Shown: positions 3,309 through 52,455 of the stretch, piece by piece
Position numbering within the stretch: position 1 is the first letter of the stretch
How the letters are laid out: every line of letters starts with the position of its first letter
Origin: Pseudanabaena cinerea FACHB-1277
GTDB lineage: Bacteria > Cyanobacteriota > Cyanobacteriia > Pseudanabaenales > Pseudanabaenaceae
Reading direction: 5' to 3'
Assembly (NCBI RefSeq): GCF_014696345.1
Contig: NZ_JACJPY010000006.1
Span: 1 to 64,000 of the forward strand
DNA: 64,000 nucleotides
Notes under the pieces: model-generated
What the model was told of the DNA's origin: nothing
The model's input: only the letters and a program-made list of their open reading frames with translations
The model's database searches: none
Position numbers and translations under genes: made by a program

Positions 3309-5030
3309 TCAGTTGCCTGGAGTTGGTTTGAGGGTAAAGAGAAAATCAAGGCGGCTGGTTTTAGTATCGATATTTGTGGTGGTTACAGAGATGCCATTGA
3401 TCGCATCAAGAACATCGCGAATTTGTGTATAACTTGGGTTGGACTTGATCTCAGGAGGCAGTAACCGATCGCCGATCGCTAAGGCATTAGTCATATTGAA
3501 GTAGAAATAACCACCATTGGCTTTGGGCATCCCTGTGGTAAAGATCTGGAAGGGGCGGCTATCAGCTAAGGTTCGCGCAGGTTTCGGTACAAAACTATTG
3601 GCGAGATCGCCCATTGCCCAAAATACAAAATTTTGATCGAGATTGCCGCGAATAGCAATATTAGTATTGCCGACCGCCCAGTTGGTAACGGATTTATCGC
3701 CAATTTGTGAGGTCTTAATTTCCATTCCCTTTGGCAACAAACCACCTGCGCTGGTTTGCGCCACCCGCTCAATTTTTTCGAGGGCTGATTTTGCTGTATT
3801 TTGATCGCTCGCTTGGGCGATCGCCACAAAGCCAAACCCAGGATTAGCGAGAATGCCTTGATTATTGGGAATCGCAGCGATCGCAAATTCACCATTCATC
3901 CATTGCAAAATATCCCGATCAAGATCCAACTTCGTGCCATCTTTGACCGCCTTCCGCAACTGCTCGATCAATTGAGCCGAACTAGCATTACCCTTTGCTT
4001 GGGTAACTAAAGATTGCCAAGATTGATAGAGGTTGACCCCAGAAATCAATAAGAAAGTTTCCTGTGGTAATAGTCCCAATACCTTGGGATCAATATTGGC
4101 AGTGGGGCTAGAATTGTCATTCTTGAGATAGGTACTAATTTCAAAGCGCAAACCTTCCTTTTGTGTGCCACCTGTGAGGGTGATGGCATCTAGCTCCCGC
4201 CGCGATTGGGCGATCGCCGATTCATTGAGATTGAGATTGGTTTGTGAGCCAATAAACTCAAGGGCAACATCGCCATCAAGATAGACCTGCATCAATGGAT
4301 CAACGACCTGAGTATTAGGATTGCCATAGATTTTGGCAAAAACAGGCTTCTTGGCAAGGGAGGGGCTGTTGTTTTGGTAAGTATCGATCGCCTGTTGGAT
4401 CAAACTGCCACTAGTGGCGATCGCCACATACTGACCGCCAATATCCGCCGTCACCAAATTGTTATTGGGATCGCGGGATGGCGATTCATAGTAGGTAAAA
4501 TTTTTATATTGCTTAGCGGTAAATCTTGCCCCCTGTTGGGTCAGTGCTTCACGGTATTTATTTAAAAACAAATCAGACCTGACGCGATCGCGGGTTGGGG
4601 CAATTACTAGGGTGGCGGCGGGGGCTTGGGGCTGAGCAGGATTAGGCACTAAAGCCGTGATCACATAGCCATCTAACCAAGGTTGGACATCGCGGTTATA
4701 GTCGGTTTTGCTTTGGACTAACAAGGAGCTAAGGGGCGATTTGCTAATGCCTTCGCCAATCAACTTCTGGGAAGCAGGTGTCCCAAACTGCGCTAACTTA
4801 TTCCAAGGCTCAGGATTAGTATTAAATGCCATGACTACCTGTGCGCCCTGTGGTACGACCGCCGCCGCGCCTAAAATGCCTTTAATCGCCTGCGATCGCT
4901 GAGCAAAGTAAAAGTAAGCCCCACCCACGCCAATGCCGACCACTGCTGCCCCGACACCGAGATAGGTCAACAATGCTCGTTGTTGATTGGACTTTGATGA
5001 AAGTTTGTGATCTTTGGAGGGCTTCGCCAT
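3309..5030 (-). CDS. DUF3352 domain membrane-anchored protein
   Basis: This 573-residue protein is of the cyanobacterial DUF3352 type, whose function is not established. A short basic N-terminus (about 1-22) precedes a Gly-rich membrane helix at about 24-45 (YLGVGAAVVGIGVGGAYFYF). A long extracytoplasmic domain follows and starts with VPQGAQVVMAFNTNPEPW, typical of the family. The domain contains two related halves of alternating strands and helices, with the repeated theme of a protein value that decides whether something is kept (LLPQETFLLISGVN). The gene stands alone between convergent unknown genes and a divergent response regulator. The start ATG at 5028-5030 fits the basic-then-hydrophobic N-terminus. 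Confidence 0.75.
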   Translation of the reverse strand: MAKPSKDHKLSSKSNQQRALLTYLGVGAAVVGIGVGGAYFYFAQRSQAIKGILGAAAVVPQGAQVVMAFNTNPEPWNKLAQFGTPASQKLIGEGISKSPLSSLLVQSKTDYNRDVQPWLDGYVITALVPNPAQPQAPAATLVIAPTRDRVRSDLFLNKYREALTQQGARFTAKQYKNFTYYESPSRDPNNNLVTADIGGQYVAIATSGSLIQQAIDTYQNNSPSLAKKPVFAKIYGNPNTQVVDPLMQVYLDGDVALEFIGSQTNLNLNESAIAQSRRELDAITLTGGTQKEGLRFEISTYLKNDNSSPTANIDPKVLGLLPQETFLLISGVNLYQSWQSLVTQAKGNASSAQLIEQLRKAVKDGTKLDLDRDILQWMNGEFAIAAIPNNQGILANPGFGFVAIAQASDQNTAKSALEKIERVAQTSAGGLLPKGMEIKTSQIGDKSVTNWAVGNTNIAIRGNLDQNFVFWAMGDLANSFVPKPARTLADSRPFQIFTTGMPKANGGYFYFNMTNALAIGDRLLPPEIKSNPSYTQIRDVLDAINGISVTTTNIDTKTSRLDFLFTLKPTPGN

Positions 5031-43968: not shown

Positions 43969-44243
43969 TGGCAACCCACTTATTGGGATTGTTTTTTAAG
44001 TCGTAGCCTCAAAACACTAAGGCTCAAAATGTCATTGTGGTTCGTTTAATATGCATTACCGCTTGTTTTTGAGTTTTTGTGTCTCAACTCGCTTGGCTAT
44101 GGCTATAATTGATCGATATTGATATCCACTCAAGGTGATTGCTAAGCTATAGACTCAAACATTATTGAGCAATTAGCAAGTAGTGGCTTCATAGCAGTAA
44201 TAGCTAGTACTGCAAATCCAGAAATAATGGTGAGGATTGATTG

Positions 44244-47200
44244 ATGGCATCCAACATGAACAACAAAGGCATTGACGCAAACGATCTAGACAAGGATCTC
44301 GTGGGTCGTAAGGATAATGCAGATGATTCTGATGCTATGAATGTTGACTGGATGATTATGTCTGATTTTAGTACCAAAATTGGTGCGCCCACACAACTAT
44401 CCTCAAATCAATCTCCCCCTAAAGCGACAGCCGCCGCGACAACAGCAAAACCCATAGTGCCACCACGCGCCACTGATGACTTAGAAGAGGATTTGGAAGA
44501 CATCGAATGGTTGCAGTCACTTGGGCTAGATGAGCCAGTTGAGAGCTACAACAAACCTAGTAAATCAGTTACTGGTAATAATCTCTCTGCTGCGTCAACA
44601 CAATTTAGTCAGTTTAATCAGTCAAATGCCAACGCTGAAGCGAATAACATTGAAAATATTGATTGGCTCATTGTTTCTGATCTCACAAATCGCATCGAAG
44701 ACTCTGTACCCAAAACTGAATTTAACCGTTCGGATTCAATTTCACAATCTTTAGATACTTTCACAAATTCTGCCGCAGACGACTTTAGCTTTTTAGACGA
44801 GCCAGAGTTAACAGATTTCGATAGTCTTGGCTTTGATATAGCGAAGGATGATAATGAGAAAACCTCTGGTGACTTTGCCAATGAATTTCCTAGTGATGAA
44901 TTTAGCCAAAGTGCCGACTTAAGTGACATGGAGTTTTTGGGGGATCTGCTACAAGAAAGTAGTGGTGCGACTGATGATCTATCAAACGATATACTCAATG
45001 ATCTTAGAGATATCGAAGAACTAGACACAATTGGGCGTAGTTTTACCTACGAAAATGAAGGAACCTCAGACAACAGCGAAATTAGTGACGACTTGCTTGA
45101 GATCGATAATTCTGTCGATAGTTTAACCGATAATCTGGTCGATGAGCAGTTAGACCTACAACCTAATAGTTTTATTGATAGTTCTATTGACGGAAGTTTC
45201 GCTCAATCTGAACAGGCTCTTGCTAGCCCTGATTTAATCGATGATTGGCAAGTTGATCCTATGGTGTCTGAAAATGACTTTGCTGTTCCATTAGAAGTAA
45301 ATCCAGATGTAGATGATGCCATTTGGTCAGATAGCAACAGTCTGTTAGCTGAAGTTGGTTCGTCTACTGACTACGCAGATGTATTTGCTGATGACTGGCA
45401 ACCTCTTAGTGACAATGTTCCCCTTGATGATGGGGTTTGGCATAGTTCTGAAAGCGCCAGTGATGCGGCTCTATCAGATACAGTGATTAATAATGCCTTT
45501 GATAATCCCTTTAATAGTTCCTTTGATGAGTCGCTTGATAATCCCTTTGAGATGGAAAGTGGATCTGATGATGAGGCGATCGCGTTTGCTAATTTTGATT
45601 TTCAAGACAGTTTGGCTAATAGCCCAAACGATAGCTCTACTGAAAATTTATCTACTGACAATTTGAATGATGCTGATTTTGCAGTAGAAACTTCAAGCAC
45701 TGTCAATGATCTTGTTGAAACTAGCGAAGCGGCGGAGTTTAGCGATCGCCCAGACTTTGAGAATGCGAATTTTGAGATAGATCTTGAACAAGAGATTATT
45801 CAACCGATGCTTGAGGCGGATAGTTTTGAATATTACGATGAAAAGTTAGAGCCAGCAACTGATTTAGGTCTCAATCTAGACTGGCAAGATAATTTGGAAG
45901 CTGATGCTAATTTAGGTGCAGATGCAGATTGGGGGAACAATTGGCAAGATAATTTGGAAGCTGATGCTAACTTAGGTGCAGATGCAGATTGGCAAGACAA
46001 TTTGGGCAGTTCAGAGCCTCTAGAAGATCAAGACTATTGGCAAGAGAATCTTGAGGTGGAAAGTATTGATTGGCAAAATATTACAGAGTTAGAACAAGAT
46101 CTGGAGCAAAATCTAGGACAGGAGTTAGCACAAGATTGGCAACCTCAAGATGAGTTCAAAGACGAGTTCAAACAGGAACTGAATGACTGGTCATATCCGC
46201 CAATACCAGAAGATATGCCACTTGAGGCGATCGCCCCAAATGTAAGCACTCTTAGCGATGCTGCTGAACCAGAACTGCAAGAACCAGTTGACGACTATCA
46301 ACATGATTATTTGCCCTCACAGGATTTGAACTTAGAAGCCAATTTTGAGCAAGAAATTGATCGTAATTTAGAAATAGGCTTAGAAGGCAATTTTGAAAGC
46401 AATTTTGAAAATATTCTTGATGAAGATTTTGATTTAGCAACCTTTGATGAAGATAGTTTGACCAAAGCACCTAGTGCTTATACGTCAAGTGTTGCGACTA
46501 CTTTAACACCTATTCACAAGGAACTTAATACCCCGCTTCCTGCGGATGATGTTGAACTTATTGCCAATGAGCTTGATCGCGATATCCAAACAAAAATTGA
46601 ACCCATCGAGGATGTTGAATTTAGCCGTAATGTCAATCTAGATGCCAAGACCCTAGATCCAATCGATATAATTGATATATCTGTTCCTGAGCCGTCACCA
46701 GCTTTTGTCCCTCCTCCACCTATTCCACCCGTGATAGATAGCTTTGATCCTATTGAAGAAGAAATCGCTAACAATCTCCTACGCGATCGCCAAAACTCAG
46801 AGGCGAGTTTTATTCAAGATGCTTTGAATAAAGATTTATTAGGTGATGATTTATTAGGTGATGATCTATTGGCAGGTGGTATGAATCACGAATATCTTGA
46901 TAACTTTGAACTAGATAATCTCGATACCCAACTATCCGCAGACTATGGCTTCACCCCGCCTGCCATTTCTACGGGCTTAAATGCTCCCACCCCGCCCCCA
47001 TTGATGCCTCCTGCCGCTACCGCGTCAATGCCCACCCCGCCCCCCATTGCCGCCAATCCACCCAACTTTTACGAAGAGCCATCGTTATCCCATACTTCAG
47101 CAACGCCCCTAACACCGCCATCACTCCCACCTCTGCCCCCTAGACGCAATACTGCAAGCAATCCATCAAGGATGTCATTGCCTACCCAGTCACACCAGCC

Positions 47201-48692
47201 TAAGGCAAGAAATGCACCCGCACCTGATAGTTTTGATAGTTTTCATGAGTCATCAGGGCGATCGGCTAACCCTAGAAGTGCCAAAGACATTGACTCTGTG
47301 GAGCAAGGCTGGTCAGAATTATTAGATGCAGATACGGTACTATCGGGCGTGTTGCGATCGCCGATCTGTGGCGACACCACTGGCGGTCAGTCTTCGCGCT
47401 CAACCCCCAGACCAAATCCAGATACAGGTGCTGCTCGTTCGCCTTCCCCACGCCAGCCCCAACGTCAGCCGCAAGAGCGAGGACGAAGTCAAGGCAAGAA
47501 ACCTTCAACAGGATTACCTAACTTTGATGAGATGGGTTTAGAAATACATGATGACAATACAGACTGGTCTGGACTATTAGACAGTGGTGAGCTATCTGAT
47601 AACATCACCACGATTAGCAATGCAAATACGCCCAAATCATCACGACCAATGCCCCCACGGTCAGACATGACCATTGGTGGAGAAACAAGGGAAATTCCCC
47701 GCGATCGCCGTCCATCGACACCTAAATTTAATGATTCGACACAGGCAAGAATGGGCATCCCCGCCGATCCTATGGATTTTAACCGTTTTACTGAAGATAA
47801 CTATGATGCTTACCAACCTGTAACGGCTCCTCCCGCAGCACCCCAAAAGCCCAAAATGGCGATGCCTAGCATCAGCCTAGAGTCTCTGTGGAATGACTAT
47901 CTCAAATATCCTGTAATTGGGCTAGGGGCGATCGGCGGTGCATTTTTGTTGTATGGCTTGGTCAACCGACCCATATTTGATTTTGGATTACGATTGGGCG
48001 TTTTTAAAGATGCAAAAGGTATGGATTTTACCAAGGCAGACTTTACAGGTGCAAAACTAGAAAATGTTGACTTTAGCGAAGCCAACCTGACTAACGCCAA
48101 GTTTCACGATGCAAACCTTGCGGGAGCCAATTTGCAAAATGCAAAACTGGATGGTACGGACTTCAAAAATGCCAACATGAATGGCGCAAGGTTAATTAAT
48201 GCTAGTGTGGTTTGGGCAAATTTTTCCAATGCTCAAATGAATTTAGTTGACTTTTCAGGAGCCGATATTACGCGCTCTAACTTTACTGGCACAAAAATGA
48301 ATGGAGCCAGTCTCAAAGGCACAAAGATTGGCGCACAGGGAACAGATAAAGCAACGAGGTTAAGTCCCACGGTTTTATTGGCTTGGCAAATTGTCAATGA
48401 GCCAAGGGAAGGGCGTAATCTCAATGGACAGGACTTGTCGGCACTTAATCTCAGTCACAGTATGCTCAAGAGGGCAAACTTAACGAATGCTAAGTTAAAC
48501 TTTACCGATATGACTGAAACAGATCTCAGTGGTGCGAATCTTAGTGGCGCTCAGGTCAACGGTGCAAATTGGAATGGGGCGAAGCTAAATGGGATCAATC
48601 TTACCGATGTGAAGTTTGATAAGACCAAACTTCCTCGAACCGATGAACAAACAATTTGCCCTAATAATCGTCCAGGTCCTTGTAAGTTTTGA
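44244..48692 (+). CDS. Giant acidic protein with C-terminal pentapeptide repeats
   Basis: This 1482-residue protein is not a known family as a whole. Residues about 1-850 are very acidic and low in complexity, with recurring short motifs such as DWMIMSDF, DWLIVSDL and IEWLQSLGL and two 20-residue repeats (WQDNLEADANLGADAD). About 850-1180 is Pro-rich with PPPP runs and two WSxLLD motifs. One membrane helix lies near 1225-1250 (YPVIGLGAIGGAFLLYGLVN). The end (about 1255-1470) is pentapeptide repeats (ADFTGAKLENVDFSEANLTN), forming a right-handed beta-helix. Start ATG 44244 follows a GAGG. A membrane-linked scaffold is an inference. Confidence 0.75.
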   Translation: MASNMNNKGIDANDLDKDLVGRKDNADDSDAMNVDWMIMSDFSTKIGAPTQLSSNQSPPKATAAATTAKPIVPPRATDDLEEDLEDIEWLQSLGLDEPVESYNKPSKSVTGNNLSAASTQFSQFNQSNANAEANNIENIDWLIVSDLTNRIEDSVPKTEFNRSDSISQSLDTFTNSAADDFSFLDEPELTDFDSLGFDIAKDDNEKTSGDFANEFPSDEFSQSADLSDMEFLGDLLQESSGATDDLSNDILNDLRDIEELDTIGRSFTYENEGTSDNSEISDDLLEIDNSVDSLTDNLVDEQLDLQPNSFIDSSIDGSFAQSEQALASPDLIDDWQVDPMVSENDFAVPLEVNPDVDDAIWSDSNSLLAEVGSSTDYADVFADDWQPLSDNVPLDDGVWHSSESASDAALSDTVINNAFDNPFNSSFDESLDNPFEMESGSDDEAIAFANFDFQDSLANSPNDSSTENLSTDNLNDADFAVETSSTVNDLVETSEAAEFSDRPDFENANFEIDLEQEIIQPMLEADSFEYYDEKLEPATDLGLNLDWQDNLEADANLGADADWGNNWQDNLEADANLGADADWQDNLGSSEPLEDQDYWQENLEVESIDWQNITELEQDLEQNLGQELAQDWQPQDEFKDEFKQELNDWSYPPIPEDMPLEAIAPNVSTLSDAAEPELQEPVDDYQHDYLPSQDLNLEANFEQEIDRNLEIGLEGNFESNFENILDEDFDLATFDEDSLTKAPSAYTSSVATTLTPIHKELNTPLPADDVELIANELDRDIQTKIEPIEDVEFSRNVNLDAKTLDPIDIIDISVPEPSPAFVPPPPIPPVIDSFDPIEEEIANNLLRDRQNSEASFIQDALNKDLLGDDLLGDDLLAGGMNHEYLDNFELDNLDTQLSADYGFTPPAISTGLNAPTPPPLMPPAATASMPTPPPIAANPPNFYEEPSLSHTSATPLTPPSLPPLPPRRNTASNPSRMSLPTQSHQPKARNAPAPDSFDSFHESSGRSANPRSAKDIDSVEQGWSELLDADTVLSGVLRSPICGDTTGGQSSRSTPRPNPDTGAARSPSPRQPQRQPQERGRSQGKKPSTGLPNFDEMGLEIHDDNTDWSGLLDSGELSDNITTISNANTPKSSRPMPPRSDMTIGGETREIPRDRRPSTPKFNDSTQARMGIPADPMDFNRFTEDNYDAYQPVTAPPAAPQKPKMAMPSISLESLWNDYLKYPVIGLGAIGGAFLLYGLVNRPIFDFGLRLGVFKDAKGMDFTKADFTGAKLENVDFSEANLTNAKFHDANLAGANLQNAKLDGTDFKNANMNGARLINASVVWANFSNAQMNLVDFSGADITRSNFTGTKMNGASLKGTKIGAQGTDKATRLSPTVLLAWQIVNEPREGRNLNGQDLSALNLSHSMLKRANLTNAKLNFTDMTETDLSGANLSGAQVNGANWNGAKLNGINLTDVKFDKTKLPRTDEQTICPNNRPGPCKF
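45882..46001 (+). repeat. Two tandem 60-bp units inside the giant gene
   Basis: Bases 45882-45941 and 45942-46001 both start TGGCAAGATAATTTGGAAGC and are nearly identical for about 50 bases. Recent duplication within the acidic region. Confidence 0.85.
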
Positions 48693-49334: not shown

Positions 49335-49408
49335 TCAGACTGTATAAAAGGCTATAAAAGGCTTGGTAAGGTAGTCGGTTGCTCCTGCGCGATTGCTATG
49401 TTCAACTC
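49335..49408 (-). pseudogene. Remnant of a receiver domain after the DUF3095 gene
   Basis: On the minus strand a short frame reads RAGATDYLTKPFIAFYTV and then stops at 49335-49337. RAGATDYLTKPF is the classic end of a receiver domain (GAxDYLTKPF with the conserved Lys). It lies just after the DUF3095 stop in another frame. It is a leftover of a lost response regulator. Confidence 0.6.
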
Positions 49409-50619
49409 TTCATTCGTTCTTTCATTGACAACGCAGCTAGAGCATAGCCACCATCGGCTCCATCAATGAAATGCACCTGTCTACCATCGCGCTCAAATAC
49501 GAGGCAAGTCATGAGGGCGCGATCGGAAATATGAATACCGTAAACTAAACGTCCTTTCAAAAACTGCTTATCTAAATAGCTAATTAACCTTTGTCTCTGT
49601 TTGATCTTGCCTGAAATAACCATACGGAGGCAATCATCAAATTTTTTAAAATCCGTAGTCTCATTGACAATTTGTTTGTAATTGCCCCAATTGAATCCTG
49701 CAATTTTAATCTTTAAATTCATGAAAATTAATCCTAGAAAATTAATAACACGTAATTTCCAGATGTAAAGTACCTTTTGCCAAGGCTTTTGATAAGCAGT
49801 AAATACCCTTGCTTCTAAAGCTAAATTTTTCTTTAAAAATGAAAGCTGCAAATTATCAACTACTACAGGATTACAATCAATATCTTTGCCGTAAATATGT
49901 TCGATTTGCTGAATTACTTCACAATAAATAGCATCTATTTGACTCTGGCTAGGGGCTGTTACATAAACGATCAAACTCATGATCTCCTCATGTCTTGTCG
50001 GGATATCTTGCCATCGACATTCTAGACCTGTGTAATCGGCGATCGCCTGATCAATATTGATTTGAGGACTATATAAATGACTGGTGGCACGTTCTTTAAT
50101 CAAGCGCGTTGCGTAGGTAATGCCGCCCCCCCTGAGAATAGCTTGGCTATAATTTGGGGAGACTCGTAGCTTTGCCACTTTGAGGCTATGGTTATCGGTA
50201 ATGTGTTCTAGGGGTATGATTCCCGCCCTGAGTTCCAATTTAAACTCTTCCTTTGCCATGTTTTGTAACGCAACCAGAGCTATTTCCACTTCCTGAATAA
50301 ATCTTGGTGGAATCAATAATGAAGCCCCATCTCCGCCGAAAACAAAAGGAATTTCCAGTTCACCCACAATATTGAGAATGGCAACAATTGAGCAAGCACC
50401 TAATAAATTAACGTCTTTATATCTTCCTGCCGCGATCGCGGCGGTTGATTGAGCAACATCAGTAATAACTACCACCCATTCTTTAGGAAAGTCCTGAAAG
50501 TTAGAGATATCAGTAATATCAGCAAAGTCTGAAATAGTCTCTAGGTCAGCATAAAAGGTTTCAGATGCAAAATTTTTATCCAGAAAATCCTGAGTTATCA
50601 TGGTGCTGCTCAATGGCAA
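49402..50619 (-). CDS. DUF3095 protein (adenylate-cyclase-like)
   Basis: This 405-residue protein is of the DUF3095 family, which has a cyclase-like fold. The start shows the usual FYADLETISDFADITDISNF, then VVITDVAQSTAAIAAGRYKDVN and the core PFVFGGDGASLLIPP. The C-terminal part (about 230-400) includes FDDCLRMVISGKIKQRQRLI and HISDRALMTCLVFE. Cyclase activity is not proven for the family. The neighbours are a response regulator and a sigma factor, so a signalling role is plausible. Confidence 0.8.
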   Translation of the reverse strand: MPLSSTMITQDFLDKNFASETFYADLETISDFADITDISNFQDFPKEWVVVITDVAQSTAAIAAGRYKDVNLLGACSIVAILNIVGELEIPFVFGGDGASLLIPPRFIQEVEIALVALQNMAKEEFKLELRAGIIPLEHITDNHSLKVAKLRVSPNYSQAILRGGGITYATRLIKERATSHLYSPQINIDQAIADYTGLECRWQDIPTRHEEIMSLIVYVTAPSQSQIDAIYCEVIQQIEHIYGKDIDCNPVVVDNLQLSFLKKNLALEARVFTAYQKPWQKVLYIWKLRVINFLGLIFMNLKIKIAGFNWGNYKQIVNETTDFKKFDDCLRMVISGKIKQRQRLISYLDKQFLKGRLVYGIHISDRALMTCLVFERDGRQVHFIDGADGGYALAALSMKERMKS

Positions 50620-50777: not shown

Positions 50778-51980
50778 TTAGTCAATTGGCGTTGCTAAAA
50801 TCTTTTTAAGGGCGATTAATCCTTTTTTGAGTTGCCTCGAAACTGTCACTGCACTGATACCCAAGGTTTCGGCAACTTCGCGGTGGGTAAATTCTTTTAA
50901 AAACACAAACTCTACAACTTCACGGGTGCGATCTTCCAATAGATCTAATGCTTGTTGCAGCCGAATACTATCTTCTTGGGCAAGTTGAAAGCTTTGATAT
51001 TTATGATCGGTGACGAGATCGCCGAGGGATGTGGAGTTCTCTTCGCTTTGATCGATGGGTGTATCAAGACTAATGGGCGATCGGTTTTGACAGGCAAGTT
51101 TGATGTCATACCATTCATTAACAGTGATCCCCAATTCATTGGCAATATCTTGGCTAGAAGGCTCGCGTCCTGTTTCAGCGCATCTAGCGCGGATGATCTT
51201 ACAGCCTTGGTTATAGATTGTTAGCCAAGCGCGAGGCATCTTGACAGTAGGGCTTTTGTCGCGGAGATAATGTTGGATTTCGCCTTTGATGTAGGGAACG
51301 GCAAAGGAGCTAAAGGCATTGCCCTTGCTCACATCAAAACGCTCGATCGCATTGATCAACCCAATCGAGCCAACCTGCATGAGATCCTCAAAGCTTTCTT
51401 GACATTGGTTTTTCCAATGGTATGCCTCACGTCTTACCAGTCCAATATTAAGATTGACTAACTGATTTCGTAGCTTGATTGATGGATTGGCGCGATAGGC
51501 TTGCAAAATTTCGAGGGTTTCCCGCTTACGCGAAACAGTCATTTGTGGATCAATATCTTCGGGTTCGCTAGGTTCGTTGCGACTATCGAGAATTTGCCTA
51601 TGTAAAAAGCTCTCCAATTGTTGGTAAATTAGCGATCGCGCTGATTTATCAAAATCTTCGCAGCAATCATAATCTGTTGTAGGTGCAAACTGGGTCAATG
51701 CTTTTTTGAAAGCTTGTTTACCAATCTGAAGCAATTCCCGATCTATCGCTCTCCTTTCGCCAGCATGACGGTTGGTAGTGCGGCGCTCTTCTGTGACAGG
51801 GCGTTGAAGGGCGCTAATTTGGTTAATTAGGGCAAGGGGCAGCGAGGCGATCGTTTCCCTAATTAATCCCATATATATTTCGACAAGACGATCTTCTAAG
51901 ATTACGGATGGCGAAACCTGATATGCTCTTAAAAGAGTAAGATTATTTTTATCTTGGGGACTGCTTGAATCCGATGGCAT
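50778..51980 (-). CDS. sigF: SigF-type (group 3) sigma factor with duplicated sigma-2 region
   Basis: This protein is about 400 residues with start ATG 51980 (423 with the upstream ATG 52049). Residues about 175-400 hold the normal domains: sigma-2 with SFEDLMQVGSIGLINAIERF, sigma-3 with TGREPSSQDIANELGI, and sigma-4 with FTHREVAETLGISAVTVSRQ. Residues about 10-155 look like a degenerate first sigma-2 (LLRAYQVSPSVILEDRLVEI, ELLQIGKQAFKKALTQF) that aligns with the second copy. Cyanobacterial SigF controls pili and motility genes and is normally about 260 residues. The extra domain could bind an anti-sigma factor. Confidence 0.8.
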   Translation of the reverse strand: MPSDSSSPQDKNNLTLLRAYQVSPSVILEDRLVEIYMGLIRETIASLPLALINQISALQRPVTEERRTTNRHAGERRAIDRELLQIGKQAFKKALTQFAPTTDYDCCEDFDKSARSLIYQQLESFLHRQILDSRNEPSEPEDIDPQMTVSRKRETLEILQAYRANPSIKLRNQLVNLNIGLVRREAYHWKNQCQESFEDLMQVGSIGLINAIERFDVSKGNAFSSFAVPYIKGEIQHYLRDKSPTVKMPRAWLTIYNQGCKIIRARCAETGREPSSQDIANELGITVNEWYDIKLACQNRSPISLDTPIDQSEENSTSLGDLVTDHKYQSFQLAQEDSIRLQQALDLLEDRTREVVEFVFLKEFTHREVAETLGISAVTVSRQLKKGLIALKKILATPID

Positions 51981-52455
51981 ACTCCAGACATCCTCAACGA
52001 TGCAAGCCGTTAATAAGTATGCCCAACACATGAAATGAGATTTTTGCATACATGAGCTTGATACAGATAGTTGTCAACTGCACATAGATACTTAAGATCG
52101 TCTCTTACAATCTATTGTGGTCAAATCTAAACTAAAAAATATGAAATCGTGGCTTTAGGACAATTTTAATTTTTATGTTGTAGTTTGCTTGATCGGCAAT
52201 TGCTGTAAGTTGGATTAATCTATTTGTTCCGAAGCCCAGGGAACCCTATGGTGCATTACCAACAGCTAGTAAGCTGAGGAATCGCATATATGATGCCCTT
52301 ACGAAAGCAATTATAAGGGCAAATACATCGTCAAGCACAAGCGCCATTATACAGTGTTCTGCGTATTTGCTATTTACAGCACTTTGTCCTTTAACCTAAA
52401 TCAGAAAAAGTTGGGAGTCTTTGCTTGCTTTTTGCTGTAGGCAAAATCTGAACTG
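51981..52455. other. Gap between SigF and ProA genes
   Basis: No gene or RNA is convincing in these 475 bases. The first 69 bases may be coding if SigF starts at 52049. A hairpin TGCCCTTA..TAAGGGCA lies at 52294-52321. The sequence TTTTTGCTGTAGGCAAAATC near 52430 resembles sequence near 41285. Confidence 0.5.

Follow-up and report, generated by a model that had tools for sequence, protein, structure and literature searches.

A SigF/SigJ-type sigma factor of the order Pseudanabaenales that carries a second, degenerate sigma-2 domain in tandem

The window, by which we mean the whole stretch of 64,000 nucleotides that was analysed, contains on its minus strand an open reading frame that runs from an ATG at position 51,980 to a stop at position 50,778 and translates into a protein of 400 residues (Table 1). 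Residues ~150 to 400 comprise a complete SigF/SigJ-type sigma factor: the score against the SigF model NF005644 is 398.9 bits, relative to a cut-off of 261, and the C half matches the Pfam models for regions 2, 3 and 4 above cut-off and in order, with the SigF-invariant residues retained. The cyanobacterial group 3 sigma factors of this type (NF005644/PRK07408) include Synechocystis SigF (Slr1564) and Nostoc SigJ (Alr0277). The tandem protein resembles them in its C-terminal 250 residues, which hold sigma-2, sigma-3 and sigma-4, and differs from them in the extra degenerate sigma-2 domain that lies in front. Its 400 residues and second sigma-2-like domain contrast with the ~258 residues and single sigma-2 usual for NF005644 members, a length that describes the profile and its single-copy members as a usual trait, which the curated model does not itself require. 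On its sequence, the tandem protein is a variant inside the SigF/SigJ-type family NF005644, and the family trait of directing core polymerase to SigF-type promoters is predicted here for the C half.

Table 1. Coordinates of the tandem sigma factor gene and its parts within the window.
Feature	Position	Strand	Basis
SigF/SigJ-type group 3 sigma factor with tandem sigma-2	50778..51980	-	ORF, translation, NF005644 score, start codon test
N-terminal degenerate sigma-2, residues 10-130	51591..51953	-	sequence, profile and fold comparisons
N-copy insert between regions 2.1 and 2.2, residues 47-80	51741..51842	-	alignments, pLDDT
Linker joining the two sigma-2 copies, residues 131-152	51525..51590	-	
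Canonical sigma-2, residues 153-243	51252..51524	-	Pfam Sigma70_r2, 1e-15 at residues 174-243; order-wide conservation
Sigma-3, residues 268-330	50991..51179	-	Pfam Sigma70_r3, 7.8e-10
Sigma-4, residues 344-393	50802..50951	-	Pfam Sigma70_r4, 2e-12

The start codon at position 51,980 is backed by a comparison of 14 genomes, in which the 23 open in-frame codons upstream of it lack third-position bias and are therefore not coding. A longer N terminus with a hydrophobic leader, which would begin at an ATG found 23 codons upstream and in frame in many genomes, was dropped on the same absence of a coding signal. The DNA immediately 5' of the start codon (51,981-52,100, the leader on the minus strand) is well conserved in most of the genus, reads TTGACA followed by GGTATCAAGCACATGTATGCAAAG...GAGGATG, is open in frame in 14 genomes without coding signal, and is probably a promoter and leader. 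Directly downstream of the sigma gene lies a gene for a DUF3095 protein (49,402-50,619), which is not adjacent to the sigma gene in the relatives examined.

A first-pass annotation of this DNA had proposed that the protein is SigF with a tandem, degenerate sigma-2 domain. The segments of the N half follow the order of regions 1.2/2.1, 2.2 and 2.3 of sigma-2, and both pairs of aligned segments quoted in that annotation (residues 16-35 with 158-175, and residues 82-98 with 199-215) are present, as is a third pair that it had not listed, EDFDKSARSLIYQQLESFLHR (108-128) with NAFSSFAVPYIKGEIQHYLRD (221-241). Comparison of the two halves of the window protein by Smith-Waterman alignment gave a score of 69, relative to 31.6 +/- 5.2 for shuffled sequences, with 0 of 2000 shuffles reaching 69, and the same comparison in relatives resulted in z values of 5.6 to 23.4. 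In profile-profile comparison, an order-wide profile of the N half matched seven single-copy SigF-type proteins of other families with an E value of 4e-17 (probability 98.8). Isolated N halves of relatives matched NF005644 in register over positions 4-99 (5.4e-16 for L068, 2e-15 for L029, 2.8e-15 for L030 and 1.9e-12 for L069), and the N half of the window protein itself matched at 9e-4 over positions 9-43. The Pfam model Sigma70_r2 does not report the N half of the window protein, and the N half of a relative (G027) exceeds the cut-off of that model with a score of 28.4 versus 24. When the N profile was compared with the PDB, the best 60 sequences listed were sigma factors or sigma-derived scaffolds, each matched over region 2. 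A search for homology to region 1.1 yielded no Pfam region 1.1 match at E values up to 10, and the matches of the N domain fall on region 2. The shuffles, together with the N halves of relatives that match in register, rule out chance similarity of the halves. Taken together, these results confirm that the N-terminal stretch is a second, divergent sigma-2 domain in front of a complete sigma factor.

We also examined the fold of the N domain, a check that the first-pass annotation had suggested. A model of residues 1-140, built from an alignment free of canonical sigma sequences, was of moderate confidence (pLDDT 75.6, pTM 0.63) and in structure comparison best matched SigB of S. aureus (Z 10.6, rmsd 2.5 over 91 residues); all 50 rows listed were sigma factors that hold region 2 or scaffolds built on region 2. 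Matches between helical structures at Z below about 13 can reflect a common arrangement, and the fold result therefore counts only jointly with the sequence results. Foldseek alone returned no match to the N-domain model with an E value under 0.1 (best 0.4), and most of its top rows were sigma factors. Confidence was low for the insert between regions 2.1 and 2.2, which is found in the window's genus and is Arg-rich in its second half. The part of the insert at 51,735-51,788 (residues 65-82) often reads ERRVSNRRVGERRSSDRE at the same place in L051-L067, which comprises two RRxS motifs that resemble basophilic kinase sites and are not retained in the window's own species.

The tandem form was found in 25 of the 26 genomes of the window's genus, Pseudanabaena, with full-length matches of 75-84% identity, which rules out an artefact of a single genome or assembly; the exception, G015, is a genome that is 76% complete. 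Seven of the eight genera in the order Pseudanabaenales encode the tandem form, namely the window's genus and those designated g2, g3, g4, g5, g7 and g8. The gene of the remaining genus, g6, has only an extension of 60-100 residues that lacks sigma-2, and a search of g6 genomes, which are 77-83% complete, with the N profile found no moved N copy. Outside the order, no tandem form occurs among the matches listed from 388 genomes of the class: the listed matches of other orders cover the C half only, in open frames of at most 341 residues, and identities of the best single-copy relatives from other families mostly lie at 55-63%. The earlier statement that cyanobacterial SigF proteins normally have one copy thus holds for the matches listed outside the order. 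Searching 13 whole genomes with the N profile revealed no stand-alone gene for the N domain; the hits were N halves and the sigma-2 stretches of SigF-type proteins, in frames of 259 to 526 residues.

Genomes of the order also encode another SigF-type protein, which lacks the extra domain and whose gene is near kin of the tandem gene (L035-L040, L049, L050), and the copy in the window genome lies at G000:C114:61601-62362. One copy of this paralogue (G005:C76:6447-7064), in a single incomplete MAG, contains an internal TAA. The F-type paralogue of other families (L045) is not among the matches of the order. In the MAG SM2_2_1 (L074 at about 3660-3704, and L079), the frame of the C half breaks directly after region 2.3, which may be an assembly error and leaves the architecture unchanged.

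In genera g4, g5 and g7, the linker between the two copies holds a relic of the junction between sigma-3.2 and sigma-4.1, and in g7 this second junction copy is seen as QYQSFRLAEEDTKILQQLLRSLDER beside KYRSFQLSEEDSLRLQEALDLLEER. When linkers were compared with sigma-3/4, 0 of 5000 shuffles equalled the result for L034, L074 and L029 (g7 and g5), and 25 of 5000 did so for L028 (g4); the same comparison detected no such relic in linkers of the window's genus. Because the relic lies between the copies, the upstream unit was once a longer sigma factor, and probably a whole one. Two points go beyond the first-pass annotation: the N copy is what remains of a longer sigma gene, and selection has maintained this copy. 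The N halves form one clade (support 98/95), as do the C halves (96/94), which group with the single-copy paralogue of the order and apart from other families (99/97), and this sigma type has therefore expanded inside the order. Placement of the N copy, which relied on 86 columns and a long branch, rejected neither an origin within the group formed by the order's C copies and paralogue (p-AU 0.40) nor a position beside the C copies (0.13). These results show that, in an ancestor of the Pseudanabaenales, two SigF/SigJ-type sigma units came to lie head to tail and then fused; the downstream unit remained a complete sigma factor, and the upstream unit dropped sigma-3 and sigma-4, so that only sigma-2 is left of it, together with a scrap of the junction in three genera. 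The retention of the relic of sigma-3.2/4.1 between the units in those genera means that the form originated by tandem gene duplication, fusion and decay, and we are highly confident in both the architecture and its origin.

Decay of the upstream unit could have left a remnant with little or no function that stays in frame because it is harmless. Consistent with such a remnant, the N half has diverged at several times the rate of the C half and has gained inserts, sigma-3 and sigma-4 are gone from the N unit, and the N copy is absent in g6; given the fast evolution and the absence in g6, the N copy is not strictly needed. However, dN/dS for close pairs within the genus is about 0.13 for the N half (0.12 to 0.14), which is far below 1, and the ratio falls to 0.09 in regions 2.2-2.3 of the N copy, the most constrained part of that half. 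The corresponding values were 0.02 for the true sigma-2 domain and 0.04 for the remainder of the C half; all of these ratios are based on six close pairs from 19 sequences of the genus, with a wider set giving similar ratios at high synonymous divergence. The N copy is thus maintained by purifying selection, its helix packing is retained, and its frame stays open throughout 25 genomes of the genus as well as in six further genera. A functionless remnant is the poorest fit to the selection data, and we consider it very unlikely.

The pattern of residue loss within the N copies is uneven. Equivalents of the SigF-invariant residues P229, G233, E234, H237, R240, D241 and W252 are retained in 0 to 24% of N copies, the HWxNQC segment of region 2.1 is gone, and across regions 2.1 to 2.4 most of the remaining surface residues that are invariant in SigF are altered. 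The packing residues Y20, A94, F110, F113, A114 and I118 are retained in 88 to 100% of N copies (F113 is S in the window), and G87 is also among the SigF-invariant positions that N copies keep. Based on the sigma-2 fold, the retained positions are expected to be buried and to pack helices. The suggestion in the first-pass annotation that the extra domain would act without promoter binding is, at the level of residues, well supported by these losses, and the N copy is probably a promoter-dead regulatory domain.

The same annotation had proposed an anti-sigma factor or core polymerase as the partner of a decoy sigma-2. As a core-polymerase decoy, the N sigma-2 would still use its region 2.2 to bind the beta' coiled coil and would be a competitor, in cis, of the true sigma-2 or of other sigma factors. 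At the D199 equivalent, 12 of 17 N copies have E; at the Q202 equivalent, 11 of 17 have E and 3 have Q. These positions correspond to D403 and Q406 of sigma70, which we take to be among the core-binding residues. The strong constraint on regions 2.2-2.3, the largely retained packing of G, L, A and F in region 2.2, and the residue at the D403 position, which is mostly the acidic E, are consistent with core binding, as contact with the beta' coiled coil is made mainly by region 2.2 (PMC4598750). However, the replacement at the Q406 position and the loss of HWxNQC and other invariant surface residues argue against it, and PhyR, which has a similar pattern, is not active in initiation (PMC8103513). 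These changes weaken core polymerase as a partner, and we regard the core decoy as unlikely.

The N domain might instead pack on its own sigma-2 or sigma-4, so that the free sigma factor would stay compact until core polymerase or a signal opens it, in the manner of region 1.1 or of free sigma factors in their compact state. This intramolecular autoinhibition is a possibility that we hold tentatively. The N domain directly precedes sigma-2 with a short linker in the genus, its sigma-2 stretch is the more acidic of the two copies, and N-terminal region 1.1 acts in this way in sigma factors of group 1 (PMC2758279), all of which are consistent with folding back. On the other hand, linker length differs among genera, with a range of about 25 to over 160 residues, and the full-length model showed no confident packing between domains (pTM 0.34).

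Because the fold is kept under selection and the DNA-reading surface is lost, the N domain is most simply protein-binding. In the mechanism that we propose, the upstream sigma-2 would be a sigma mimic attached in cis that does not read promoters and would hold a protein partner, which may be an anti-sigma factor, another regulator that binds sigma-2, or the attached sigma factor's own domains, thereby setting when the sigma half is free for RNA polymerase. We favour this combination of a tandem origin and a partner-holding cis mimic as the best overall explanation, by a modest measure, with the functional part inferred. Docking of an anti-sigma or similar partner is one tentative form of this mechanism; we consider such docking and folding back on the sigma half to be nearly equal in likelihood, and a core-polymerase decoy lower than either. 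An anti-sigma partner is a possibility that the gene neighbourhood does not support: no anti-sigma gene lies beside the tandem gene, and its neighbours are not conserved among relatives. The genome encodes RsbW-like ATPases, none of them beside the tandem gene, which could be anti-sigma factors. Somewhat more doubtful is the specific version in which the promoter-dead tandem sigma-2 serves as the protein's own anti-anti-sigma and engages, in cis, the anti-sigma factor (or core), with sigma factor and decoy sharing a single polypeptide; if true, it would represent an order-wide regulatory design that arose from tandem gene duplication.

The best-known parallel for such a pattern is the sigma-like domain of PhyR in the alphaproteobacterial general stress response, a domain that titrates NepR and that folds correctly as a sigma factor although its promoter and core regions are degenerate (PMC8103513). 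Like that domain, the N domain of the tandem protein has a sigma fold with degenerate promoter-binding residues. PhyR, however, combines an ECF-type sigma-2 and sigma-4 with a receiver domain and acts in trans, whereas the tandem protein joins a lone SigF-type sigma-2 to a complete sigma factor. No receiver domain was matched by Pfam in the tandem protein and its only sigma-4-like part is the junction scrap in three genera; the N domain is therefore not a PhyR, however it works. In a split sigma system, a sigma-2-like unit likewise stands apart from the main promoter-reading unit, but there two proteins share one domain set, whereas the tandem protein has its own full set and a spare sigma-2 in one chain (PMC8103513). 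Domain duplication has also been described, in the available portion of a Pfam-architecture study of 361 cyanobacterial genomes, for the pattern r1_2*r3*r2*r3*r4 (family A.5) in a SigB-classified protein, which repeats region 3 whereas the tandem protein repeats region 2; that portion names the region 3 duplication and does not name one of region 2 (PMC11119718). We found no description of a tandem or duplicated sigma-2 in the open-access literature. In most of the members examined, Pfam fails to report the N copy, which would explain why the tandem sigma-2 went unnoticed.

The tandem genes represent a natural series, seven genera deep, in which a sigma-2 domain retains its fold and loses DNA recognition under selection. 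The working sigma-2 in the same chain provides a control, and the series can be used to test which function each sigma-2 surface is needed for. It may also be an instance of sigma mimicry in cis. In cyanobacteria, pili, motility and hormogonia are under the control of SigF/SigJ-type factors (PMC6495340, PMC2758279), and a regulator built into such a factor is therefore of practical interest.

Elsewhere in the window, positions 44,241-48,692 hold an open reading frame of 1483 residues, in which a long acidic low-complexity region is followed by pentapeptide-like repeats.
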